64,000 nt of DNA from Sulfolobus sp. E5-1-F (lineage in GTDB: Archaea > Thermoproteota > Thermoprotei_A > Sulfolobales > Sulfolobaceae). The position numbers and the translations under genes were made by a program. The notes under the pieces are model-generated. The model did no database searches and had not been told where the DNA came from. It saw only the letters and a list, made by a program, of their open reading frames with translations. The stretch is from contig NZ_CP045687.1 in NCBI RefSeq assembly GCF_009601705.1, positions 1,090,630 to 1,154,629 on the forward strand. The letters run 5' to 3'. This document shows, one piece after another, positions 4,975 through 13,507 of the stretch. Within the stretch, counting starts at the first letter, position 1; every line of letters starts with the position of its first letter.

Positions 4975-4998
4975 ATTAGTAATATGATATTATTTTAT

Positions 4999-5892
4999 AT
5001 GGCGCAACAGAATACGGAATTAGAAGGAATAGGAAAATTAAGGAGTGGTTCCCTCTTCATGATACTTGCAGTGTTACTTGCCGCAATAGGAACTCTGGTA
5101 ATTATATCTGCAGGAATCGCTAGTAGTATGTTTTCTGCTGCGACTGGTAACGCTGCTGGAATAATTGCCAGTGGTATTGGCCTTTTAGCAGGGATTGCTA
5201 TAGTAATACTAATTGGTGCTATTGTAGGACTATTAGGTGTATTAAGAGTAAGGAGTGGTTTCAGTATTTTGAAGAGCTTAGGTAAAGATGTGGGAATTGG
5301 CGAAACTGGGACTACTCTCTATCTAGTGGGGTTAATTATTGTCATTATTGGAGCGTTACTTACAATTGTAATTGTAGGATTACCAATATTGGTTTTAGGA
5401 GAAATAATAGCACTGATTGGTGGAATATTAATTGGTATAGGGTTTTACAGGGTTGGTGAAATATATAATGAAGGATTAGTTAAGATTGGTGGAATATTAA
5501 TAGCAATACCCATAGATCTTCTTAACTTCATCGGCTTTATTTTAGTATACGTAGGTTTAGGTAGAGTGAGACCATCACCAATGGTTACACAACAACCTTT
5601 AGTTCCTCAAGTTTATCAGGTTGGCCAAGGAATTATAAGGAATAATGGTTATGCTTATATCACGTTATACTCCTCATCCCCAGCTAGTGTTATATCTGCG
5701 AAAATTGAGGGTGCAAATATTATGTCGAGTGCAATAAATCCTACTGTGTTGCAAATCGGCAATAACGAGGTAACAATCTTCTTTGGGAATGTTCAATCAT
5801 TGGCTCCGAATACTACTTACATTATAACGTTAACATTAAATATTGGAGGAAATATAATTAACATCTCTACGGCTGCCGTTTATCAACCATAA
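4999..5892 (+). CDS. DUF973 family membrane protein
   Basis: This is a 297-residue membrane protein of the DUF973 family, which is expanded in Sulfolobales. It has about five hydrophobic helices up to residue 190 and a C-terminal soluble beta-rich domain of about 100 residues after a Pro/Gln-rich linker. I start at the ATG giving MAQQNTELEG rather than 15 nt upstream, because TTTTTAAATT lies at a leaderless distance from it. The motif GIGKLRSGSLF near the start and RVGEIYNEGLVKIGG before the last helix are shared with the gene at 12584-13507. A run of T follows the stop codon and may terminate transcription. Function unknown. Confidence 0.8.
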   Translation: MAQQNTELEGIGKLRSGSLFMILAVLLAAIGTLVIISAGIASSMFSAATGNAAGIIASGIGLLAGIAIVILIGAIVGLLGVLRVRSGFSILKSLGKDVGIGETGTTLYLVGLIIVIIGALLTIVIVGLPILVLGEIIALIGGILIGIGFYRVGEIYNEGLVKIGGILIAIPIDLLNFIGFILVYVGLGRVRPSPMVTQQPLVPQVYQVGQGIIRNNGYAYITLYSSSPASVISAKIEGANIMSSAINPTVLQIGNNEVTIFFGNVQSLAPNTTYIITLTLNIGGNIINISTAAVYQP

Positions 5893-8996: not shown

Positions 8997-10547
8997 TTAT
9001 TTGATTCTATCTCTTAGAACTCTTTTATTAACTTTTCCAGTACTAGTTAGCGGTAAATCTTCCATCACAATTATCTCATCTGGTATCCACCATTTTGGTA
9101 ACAAACCTTTATCTACACTGTCCTTAAGGTGATTAATTATATCTTCTCGCAGATTTTGCCCTTTGCCTTTAACTATCGCAACTGGTCTTTCTCCCCATTT
9201 TTCGTTCTTTCTACCTATTACAGCTACCATATCTACTCCACTTACTTCGGAAATTAAGGATTCAATTATACTAGGAATTATCCACTCTCCACCACTTTTA
9301 ATTAGGTCTTTTTCCCTATCTAATATTCTTAATTCATTGCTCTCTGTGATCATTGCCACATCTCCAGTTCTAAACCAATCATTCACATATGAGGATCTGG
9401 TGTTCTCTGGATCGTTAAGATACTCACCAGGTAACCAAGGTGTTTTAATCCATAACTCTCCTACCTCTCCCTTTTTAGCCTCTTCACCATCTGGTTTTAT
9501 TATTTTAAGCTCAACGAAAGGAAGAGGATGGGTGTATAACCTAGCATACTCTTCAGGATTTTGAATATTATTATTTGGGAATATTGTAATGGAGATCGCC
9601 AACATATCTGTCCCTCCATATATTGATGCGAAAGACACTCCATTTTCCTTCAACATCTTAGCGAGATTGGAAGAGATCGGAGATCCACCAACTAGAGCTT
9701 TCAATCCTTTTAGCTGTCCTTGCTTAGCTACGCCTAGTAGCATAAAGATCATCGTAGGAACTGCATTTAGCCAACTGATCCTCTCCTTCTCTATAATCTC
9801 TAAAATCTTCATTGGTTCAAATTTTCCACTCGTGACATATTTAGCGCCCAAATATGTAGCGTGAAATAGGGATCCCCATGACCATAAATGGTAAAACGGG
9901 ATAAGACCCAATATAACATCATCACTTTTCAGTGGAGCGGGACTGTTATAAAGTGATAATTGATGTACCATACCAAGTGCGCCATGAACTGTCTTTTCAT
10001 TAGTGTATATAACTGCTTTAGGTAACCCAGTTGTACCTGAGGTAAATAGAATAGAATATGGATCGCTTCCCTTTACGTTGACATCAGGTTCTTTAACCGA
10101 TCTTTTATTTACTAAGTCATCATAAGTTATCTTAGTATCGGAAGAGTCTAAACTGATAATCCTATCCTTGTTGAAGTTCTTGAAAAGAGGTGCGAAATCC
10201 TTTGCAGTGAAGATCCATTCAACTCTTGCGTGGTTAATTGTATGAAGTAATTGTTCATAGGGTAACCTTACATTTATAGGGTATATTATCGCACCTATTA
10301 AACTGGAGGCAAACAGTAATTCGACAAATTTAAGAGTGTTGTAGTCTGCAACTCCTATTATACTACCTTTAGTTATTCCAATCGATAACATTGAGTTAGA
10401 AATCCCTATTACTCTCTCATAGGTCTCTCTATATGTTTGTCTAACATTGCTGAAAGGGTCTACTATTTCCTTATCTGATGCTATTGTAATTGCTCTTTTC
10501 AAAAGTGAAAATATTGTAAATCCTTCCTGCATCCCTTTATCCCTCAT
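8997..10547 (-). CDS. AMP-dependent acyl-CoA synthetase/ligase
   Basis: This is a 516-residue member of the ANL superfamily that activates a carboxylic acid with ATP and joins it to CoA. The AMP-binding P-loop TSGTTGLPK is at residues 169-177. The A7-type motif WFRTGDVAMI and the C-terminal TSTGKVNK, carrying the catalytic lysine, are present, so the enzyme looks intact. Its start overlaps the end of the acyl-CoA dehydrogenase gene by 11 nt, so the two are co-transcribed and probably translationally coupled. An in-frame ATG at 10532 is an alternative start. The pairing points to activation and beta-oxidation of a fatty or branched acid. Chain length cannot be read from sequence. Confidence 0.88.
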   Translation of the reverse strand: MRDKGMQEGFTIFSLLKRAITIASDKEIVDPFSNVRQTYRETYERVIGISNSMLSIGITKGSIIGVADYNTLKFVELLFASSLIGAIIYPINVRLPYEQLLHTINHARVEWIFTAKDFAPLFKNFNKDRIISLDSSDTKITYDDLVNKRSVKEPDVNVKGSDPYSILFTSGTTGLPKAVIYTNEKTVHGALGMVHQLSLYNSPAPLKSDDVILGLIPFYHLWSWGSLFHATYLGAKYVTSGKFEPMKILEIIEKERISWLNAVPTMIFMLLGVAKQGQLKGLKALVGGSPISSNLAKMLKENGVSFASIYGGTDMLAISITIFPNNNIQNPEEYARLYTHPLPFVELKIIKPDGEEAKKGEVGELWIKTPWLPGEYLNDPENTRSSYVNDWFRTGDVAMITESNELRILDREKDLIKSGGEWIIPSIIESLISEVSGVDMVAVIGRKNEKWGERPVAIVKGKGQNLREDIINHLKDSVDKGLLPKWWIPDEIIVMEDLPLTSTGKVNKRVLRDRIK

Positions 10548-12171
10548 CTATAGCTATTAGCTTACGTATTTCCGGTATGTAGTCTCTTGAAATCTCCTTA
10601 CCCATAATGAATTTCTCGTAATAGATTTTCGATATGTCGATAAATCTTTCAATTCCAAGCTTATGACCGATGTGAGAAAGTAATATGACAGAGATACCGT
10701 GGCCTACGTTTGTTAATATATCCTTTGAGTAAAATTGCATTTCGTACTCTTTAAAAGATATAAGCGCTGTGAATTTGTCCTTAATGTATTCAAGAGTTTT
10801 AGATGCTGTCTCATCTCTTGTCTCATAGACTATTCTCTCTAAATCTTTCAGTAGTTGCTTATGGGCTTCTTTCTTTAGTATAGTCTCAAGCATTTCTAAA
10901 GCTTGAATATTTCCAGTTCCTTCCCAAATAGGGGTTATGAGCGCTTCTCTATGAAGTCTCTCTATTGGGAACTCCTCAAGGAATCCTATACCTCCATGAA
11001 TTTCCATAGCCATTCTCGACACATAAGACGCTATCTCGGCAGTAATGTATTTGGAAATATGAGTTAATAAACGGGCATAATGATACTCCTCACTATAGTA
11101 AGGTGGAACTGCTTTCCAGGATCTTTGAAATTCCTCTATTGCCTTAAAGGTTAATATCATACCACCGTCGATCATAATTTCCATTTCAAGCAAATCTTTT
11201 TGAATTAAAGGATGTTCAATTAGTGCTTTTCCGAAAGCTTTTCTCAACTGAGAGTAATAATATGATTCAAGAAAAGCTTTTCTCGCTATACCCAATGCTC
11301 CTACAGCATTGGCTAATCTCGATACCATGAGATCCTCAGTTATGTAATATATTCCATATTCCTTCTCCCCTATGAGATATGACTCTGAATTGTTAAACTC
11401 CACCTCCCCAGTCGGTACACTGTTAGTTCCACTTTTCCTCTTAAGTCTCCTAATTAGGAAATTTCTCTCTCCGCTACTATTCTCTTTAGGAACTAGGAAG
11501 AGAGCTAAACCTTTGGCTCCACTTTTACTTCCCCTAGGCCTAGCACTCACCAATGCGAGATCAGCTAATCCCACACCGCTAGCAAAGTACTTAGTATTTC
11601 CATTCAATACCCAATACTTACCATTAAACTCAGCTTCTACCATATTAGCCCCTAAATCACTACCACCCTGAACTTCTGTAAACCATGTAGCCCCGAAAAG
11701 TAACTCATCAGCATCTCCTATCAAATAGGAAACGTACTTCTTTAACTCATCTCCTCCATACTTATAAAGAGCGTATGCAGTTTGGTTGGTGATTGTTAGT
11801 ATACATGCAATACCCGGATCTGAAATTAAGTATATGGAAGCGAAATGTTTATGCCAATTTCCTTCTTTATATGGAAACTTATTTACATCGAAATCCTTAA
11901 TTAATCTATTAATAGCCCATCTCAGAGAAGGGTCAAGCCAGACTTCGTCAACTCTCTTTCCGTTGACGCTCCACATTATATGTATTGGCCTAGCCCTCTT
12001 ATCCACATGATCCGCTATTTCATATAATTCTCTGCCTGCAAAATCACCCAACTTTGAGAGATCTGCTTTTACATTAAAATAATCAAGTATCCTCTGTAAC
12101 GGCTTATCTACATCAAAATGATTTTTACCGTAAGCATTTGATCAGTATGAAAATGGATTATCCTTACCCAT
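10537..12171 (-). pseudogene. AidB-like acyl-CoA dehydrogenase with in-frame TGA at codon 10
   Basis: The frame encodes a large acyl-CoA dehydrogenase of the AidB/isovaleryl-type branch; TWFTEVQGGSDLGAN and the C-terminal MEIHGGIGFLEEFPIER and GTGNIQALE motifs are clear. Reading from the ATG at 12171 gives MGKDNPFSY, then TGA at 12142-12144, then SNAYGKNHFDVDKPLQRIL in the same frame, running without a break into the rest. A TATA box at 12194-12201 is placed for this ATG. The most economical view is a TGG to TGA nonsense mutation near the N-terminus. The next usable start is TTG at 12051, which would give a 504-residue product lacking about 40 residues and has no clear Shine-Dalgarno sequence. 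The rest of the gene is intact, so the mutation is recent or suppressed by reinitiation or readthrough. Confidence 0.75.
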
Positions 12172-12193: not shown

Positions 12194-12201
12194 CTTATAA
12201 G
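12194..12201 (-). promoter_or_regulatory. TATA box of acyl-CoA dehydrogenase/ligase operon
   Basis: CTTATAAG lies 22 nt before the ATG at 12171, the spacing of leaderless Sulfolobus transcripts. It supports the upstream start and so the reality of the premature stop codon. Confidence 0.55.
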
Positions 12202-12554
12202 CTTTCTTCAATACTACAAATTATAATAAAAGATATGATCTATTGAGAGAAATATCTTTATTCACCTCCATATTAGTAATTAATTTCATTCCACTATAGA
12301 TCAAATATTGGAAAAGTAGTATTTTTTATTATTATTATAAAGTTATTTTGGGTTTACTGTTTAGGGCAAGAAGGAGGTCAGTTGAAATCACTCGTGTTTC
12401 CCTGAGTAATTTAATTAATAACACTTGTAACCAAACCACTATTTTTCGCAAAGTTAATACTCTACAATATTTGGAAATACCTCATATAGGACTTTCAATC
12501 TGTTGTTCAAGAGAGTAACTCGCTCTTTTCAATTTCCTTTCTTAGGTAGTAGAA
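12202..12554. other. Intergenic region, nothing recognised
   Basis: This stretch lies between the divergent acyl-CoA dehydrogenase and DUF973 genes. No coding frame, RNA gene or repeat was seen. Confidence 0.4.
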
Positions 12555-12583
12555 TTTATAAATCTTTAGTTAAAATATATATC

Positions 12584-13507
12584 ATGTCAAATAGTAATGA
12601 AAAAGTGGGCATTGGAAAATTAAGATTAGGCTTCCTAATTTTAATAGTAGTCTCACTTTTGTCTCTCGTAAACTTATTTAGAGGGTTTATAACTACAAAT
12701 CCTACAGTTTCCCAAAATATAAATAACACAAATACACAGCAATTACTTAGCCAAATACTCTCAAATGAAGTTTCGCAGATAGAGGAAGCGTTAATTTTCA
12801 CATCAATTGTAGCAGTGATAAATATAATAGGGATGATCATATTGCGAGGCGGTTTTAACGCTTTGAGTAAAGCAGTATCGAATGATATTGGAATAGGGAG
12901 TACTGGGACTATACTATACATCATTAGTTATCCCCTAGGTATAATAGGTAATTTAATTCTTCTTAATGGAATTTTGTCCTCGAGCTTTTTTGAAATATTA
13001 ATTAGCTTGCCGTTCTCTTTCATAGAAATTATCTTACTGTTAATAGGTTCAATACTTCTCGGAATTGGAGTGTACAGAGTAGGAAGAGAGTACAATAATA
13101 CTCTCGTAAAGGTGGGCGGAATATTTATAGCGATAATAATTCTCGCATTTATAGGTTCAATTTTATCTTATATAGGATTAGGAAAGGTAAAACCAATCTC
13201 TGTAACACAAAGTGTGCAGATATACCCACTAGGGCAAGGTGTAATCAAGCGAGATGGAAGTGCAAAAGTAGCTATATATTCATCTACAAAGGCAACAATA
13301 CTCTCAGTGAAAATTGAAGGGACCAAAATTTTCACATTTAATGTAAACCCAGTAAATTTGAGCCCCGGTAACAACGAGATAGTAATTCAGTTTAACGATA
13401 TATCATCTCTTGTCGAGAATTCAATATACGTCATAACGTTGATTGTGGACGTTAGCGGAAATAGTATACCAGTAAATGTAAACGCAATATATCAAGGATC
13501 ACAATAA
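12584..13507 (+). CDS. DUF973 family membrane protein (second paralogue)
   Basis: This is a 307-residue paralogue of the protein at 4999-5892: the same GIGKLRLGF start, membrane helices, GVYRVGREYNNTLVKVGG motif, then a beta-rich C-terminal domain of about 100 residues. It differs by a longer polar Asn/Gln-rich loop after the first helix. TTTATAAA at 12555-12562 places the start at 12584 (MSNSNEK); the longer frame from 12503 begins upstream of the promoter. Both copies stand alone, so their roles cannot be inferred from operon partners. The C-terminal domain is probably outside the membrane (inference). Confidence 0.78.
   Translation: MSNSNEKVGIGKLRLGFLILIVVSLLSLVNLFRGFITTNPTVSQNINNTNTQQLLSQILSNEVSQIEEALIFTSIVAVINIIGMIILRGGFNALSKAVSNDIGIGSTGTILYIISYPLGIIGNLILLNGILSSSFFEILISLPFSFIEIILLLIGSILLGIGVYRVGREYNNTLVKVGGIFIAIIILAFIGSILSYIGLGKVKPISVTQSVQIYPLGQGVIKRDGSAKVAIYSSTKATILSVKIEGTKIFTFNVNPVNLSPGNNEIVIQFNDISSLVENSIYVITLIVDVSGNSIPVNVNAIYQGSQ

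Follow-up and report, generated by a model that had tools for sequence, protein, structure and literature searches.

The acyl-CoA dehydrogenase locus

The gene of interest here is an acyl-CoA dehydrogenase gene on the minus strand of the window, by which we mean the whole 64,000-nt stretch of a Saccharolobus-like genome that was analysed, and it is followed by an intact acyl-CoA ligase gene on the same strand (Table 1). Read directly, the dehydrogenase frame opens with the ATG at 12171-12169, runs through MGKDNPFSY, meets a TGA at 12144-12142 and then continues for 534 sense codons to a TAA at 10539-10537. The TGA is in frame at codon 10, with eight codons between it and the ATG at 12171, and no start further 5′ is possible, since an in-frame stop lies upstream of that ATG. 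A first-pass annotation made from the sequence had described this same arrangement of ATG, codon-10 TGA and long unbroken frame, and it is confirmed, the remaining frame amounting to 534 codons. The annotation had also placed a TATA box at the right distance from the first ATG, and this too holds up: the element CTTATAAG is also found in the sister genomes G014, G013 and G015, at 30 nt before the ATG as against 29 nt here, and Metallosphaera has a near-identical TATA-like element, CTTATAAT. Upstream of the dehydrogenase promoter, at 12221-12271 on the minus strand, is a 16-codon open frame that starts ATGGAGGTGAAT and has an internal Shine-Dalgarno-like GGAGGTGA; nothing in the sister sequences clearly corresponds to it.

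Table 1. Coordinates of the features at the locus, numbered within the window
Feature	Position	Strand	Basis
TATA-like promoter element CTTATAAG	12194..12201	-	direct reading; 29 nt upstream of ATG
Start ATG and codons 1-9 (MGKDNPFSY)	12145..12171	-	direct reading; start is ATG in homologues (one GTG)
TGA, codon 10, in frame	12142..12144	-	direct reading; Ile/Leu codons in homologues
Rest of open frame, 534 codons and TAA; AidB_N, Acyl-CoA_dh_M, Acyl-CoA_dh_1	10537..12141	-	domain search, alignment
TTG, codon 41, first in-frame candidate restart	12049..12051	-	close relatives all have TTA (Leu)
Glu417 codon, IWEGT motif, intact	10921..10923	-	invariant in alignment
GAGGG, possible Shine-Dalgarno site for ligase	10541..10545	-	direct reading; GAGG comparably placed in sisters
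Acyl-CoA ligase (AMP-binding), intact	8997..10532	-	start ATG 10532 supported by homologues

For the ligase, the first-pass annotation had the start overlapping the end of the dehydrogenase gene, which is doubtful. An open frame beginning at ATG 10547 would indeed overlap the dehydrogenase stop, but that ATG is without a counterpart in the sisters, whose ligases have their first Met at the place of ATG 10532 and a GAGG upstream of it. This comparison makes ATG 10532 the probable ligase start, which leaves 4 nt between it and the dehydrogenase stop. Elsewhere in the window, two putative membrane proteins (12503-13507 and 4984-5892) look alike at both ends when compared by eye.

Homologues, family and the codon replaced by TGA

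Eleven homologues were compared: four from genomes of the same genus, three from other genomes in the family, including Metallosphaera yellowstonensis, and four from named archaeal MAGs. All 11 align in a single frame on both sides of the TGA, stop-free, and nearly all begin at the codon equivalent to ATG 12171. The pattern, a stop inside the native frame and intact homologues, is one expected of a pseudogene made by nonsense mutation. Because the homologues are free of stops there, because they have the equivalent start and because the TATA-like element sits at a conserved position, the alignments place the TGA inside the native dehydrogenase coding sequence. Codons 11-40 are conserved in the homologues, which bears out the earlier claim that the residues after the TGA are native protein and not leader; homologues that begin at GDFAGREL and lack similarity upstream were looked for, and that is not the case for those compared.

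The earlier proposal that the stop arose by a change from TGG to TGA is not sustained. Opposite the TGA the homologues carry Ile (ATA, ATC, ATT) or Leu (CTC, CTA, TTG), and Trp is found at codon 10 in none of the 11, so that a TGG origin is rejected. The sister codon at this position is ATA, two changes away from TGA, and this counts against the reading as a nonsense mutation. The simplest one-step precursor, on the codons compared, is likely Leu TTA; the codon would then probably have passed from Ile ATA through Leu TTA to TGA, or have started as an ancestral Leu TTA.

As to the family, the domains AidB_N (34.3 bits), Acyl-CoA_dh_M (66.0 bits) and Acyl-CoA_dh_1 (109.1 bits) all score above the curated Pfam cut-offs and fall in a single frame. 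Moreover, the structure model, which is only moderate (mean pLDDT 69.8, 11 sequences), matches the folds of 6sd8, 5ez3, 3u33 and 4y9j at TMq 0.70-0.73. The best sequence and fold matches are to the AidB/ACDH-11 type (6sd8, Bd2924; 4y9j, ACDH-11; 3djl, AidB), which has the same AidB_N, middle and C-terminal domains; the Sulfolobus copy differs in being archaeal, in its low identity to these proteins (20-27%) and in the codon-10 stop. Against the AidB-like equivalog PRK11561 of NCBIfam (NF008594) it scores 149.2 bits, below the curated cut-off of 545, and hence its likeness to AidB is one of domain architecture only and carries no implication of AidB's role in DNA repair. Glu417 of the IWEGT motif is likely to be at the position of the catalytic base in acyl-CoA dehydrogenases. 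The dehydrogenase of M. yellowstonensis has the same amino acids as that of G013 (dS 0.009), and the sequence further upstream of its promoter differs; these sequences indicate a recent dehydrogenase transfer between Saccharolobus-like and Metallosphaera lineages.

Constraint on the frame and accounts of the stop

The 534 codons downstream of the TGA show neither the relaxed constraint nor the further lesions that would be expected only of an old pseudogene. At sites conserved among the outgroups (at least five agreeing), the interrupted copy has 5 derived changes and the G014 copy 11; with the stricter requirement of at least six outgroups agreeing, the numbers are 1 and 7. The earlier claim that the remainder of the gene is undecayed is thus upheld, with fewer derived changes than in the sister, and the change is either recent or bypassed. 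Pairwise dN for the gene is 0.087, and pairwise dS, at about 2.3-2.6, is saturated and was left out of dating. With 84% identity to its G014 counterpart, the dehydrogenase falls in the lower eighth of ortholog pairs (median 92%). By 0.04 substitutions per site, a neutral simulation run without indels leaves about a 5% chance that no further stop has been acquired. The absence of relaxed constraint means either that the TGA is very young or that the gene still yields some protein. Without translation beyond the TGA, the simulation bound makes the mutation young; with some protein produced, its age could be greater.

Our preferred explanation, for a TGA base read from one assembly of one strain, is that the gene, which encodes an acyl-CoA dehydrogenase of the AidB/ACDH-11 type in this Saccharolobus-like genome, probably carries a spontaneous, recent nonsense mutation at codon 10 and is a natural null or near-null allele. 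The dehydrogenase mRNA would still be made, with its 5′ end at or just before the ATG and thus near-leaderless, and ribosomes would stop after a 9-residue peptide, leaving full-length enzyme absent or greatly reduced. The unrelaxed state of the downstream codons suggests that the mutation is young, but absence of decay is no less expected of a gene that still makes protein, and this stands against the null allele. The ligase gene is intact and has a possible ribosome site of its own. Ligase translation may drop somewhat if it is coupled to that of the dehydrogenase, and lost coupling could lower it, although its own initiation site would make full loss of ligase translation unlikely. Other acyl-CoA dehydrogenase genes may cover the loss, there being nine matches to the family in the genome overall.

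Three rivals have to be weighed against the null allele, and we rank them in the order sequencing error, restart and readthrough. A sequencing or assembly error, with the true base giving a sense codon and an intact gene, is unlikely, though it stands at the head of the three. One genome of the lineage was searched, the gene is without sign of decay, and there is the example of aIF1 of S. solfataricus, annotated as interrupted and proved full-length on resequencing (PMC8211752). On the other hand, the genome is a single contig of 2.54 Mb and 99.99% complete, and nonsense lesions are present elsewhere in it, be they real or themselves errors. Two bases differ from the sister ATA, so that a one-base error needs TTA or a similar codon as the true one. 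Reinitiation at TTG 12051, GTG 12006 or ATG 11976, giving an N-truncated and partly active enzyme, is similarly doubtful and is placed after error. All three codons are in frame and the catalytic region is intact, but restarting would cost at least 40 residues, among them the invariant Tyr14, Asn17, His18 and Asp22 and part of AidB_N, and residues 11-40 are modelled with helices at pLDDT 81-92. Nor have codons 11-40 decayed, as a long-used restart would permit: in matches to three outgroups, the interrupted copy scores 20, 17 and 17 of 30 and the sister 19, 15 and 17. Codon 41, TTG here, reads TTA in every close relative, and the TTG lacks a clear ribosome site in front of it. From the invariant residues and conservation of codons 11-40 and the TTA of the relatives, we conclude that restart is not the native arrangement; TTG 12051 is rejected as the native start, given that the homologues use the first ATG and that codons 11-40 are conserved.

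Readthrough or recoding of the TGA, yielding full-length enzyme at a low level, comes last of the three and is highly improbable, as is the related notion that readthrough or bypass of the stop reaches useful levels, the gene staying functional and the early stop serving as a translational dimmer. It would fit the conservation of the entire frame, codons 11-40 included, and S. solfataricus is reported to have interrupted genes that function (PMC8211752, PMC8037382). Those Saccharolobus solfataricus genes, fucA1 and others, likewise have a single break in an otherwise conserved coding sequence and probably belong to the same genus (PMC8211752, PMC8037382). However, fucA1 has a -1 frameshift, a slippery site and shown expression, whereas the dehydrogenase has a single nonsense codon in one lineage only; the archaeal cases of programmed stop recoding held to be established are for Sec and Pyl, with fucA1 a frameshift (PMC8037382, PMC8211752). 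Programmed recoding would be marked by a stop conserved across lineages, and no homologue has a stop at codon 10. The genome as a whole has no tRNA-Sec above threshold, which makes selenocysteine at the TGA unlikely; sub-threshold matches occur also in S. acidocaldarius and control genomes. Among the 20 tRNAs found in 1.6 of the 2.54 Mb, none reads TGA. Reassignment of the codon is rejected, TGA being an ordinary stop: in the 1.6 Mb surveyed it closes 230 of 662 open frames of about 300 codons or longer. Nor is TGA favoured at interior lesions in this genome (2 of 6).

Interior nonsense lesions across the genome

To set a base rate, 1.6 Mb of this genome was compared with 1.2 Mb of G014, which gave 468 ortholog pairs. 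Manual reading of the lesion list left five genes clearly hit by interior nonsense lesions, at genome positions 1102773 (the dehydrogenase), 1269025, 2519712 with 2520972, 7837 and 2391897; the six stops are three TAA, two TGA and one TAG, and about seven further genes have apparent frameshifts. The codon-10 stop is most likely a real but ordinary instance of a kind of lesion carried by roughly 1 in 100 genes here. Searching the literature for this enzyme among Sulfolobus islandicus pseudogenes turned up no report of it, and no match was found in plasmid records. If the allele is plainly null, its importance is confined to annotation and to how the strain's fatty-acid metabolism is read. It is also a clean candidate for testing whether early nonsense codons are tolerated, in an archaeal genus with interrupted genes of which some are reported functional.

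Two of the other lesions, both outside the window, can be described further. The gene at 2519712/2520972, of 447 residues, has a TGA at the codon for Trp8 and a TAG at that for Tyr428 and is otherwise 95.5% identical to its G014 ortholog, the early TGA in this case lying opposite Trp. At 1269025, a TAA at codon 328 breaks the counterpart of a 902-residue open reading frame of G014.
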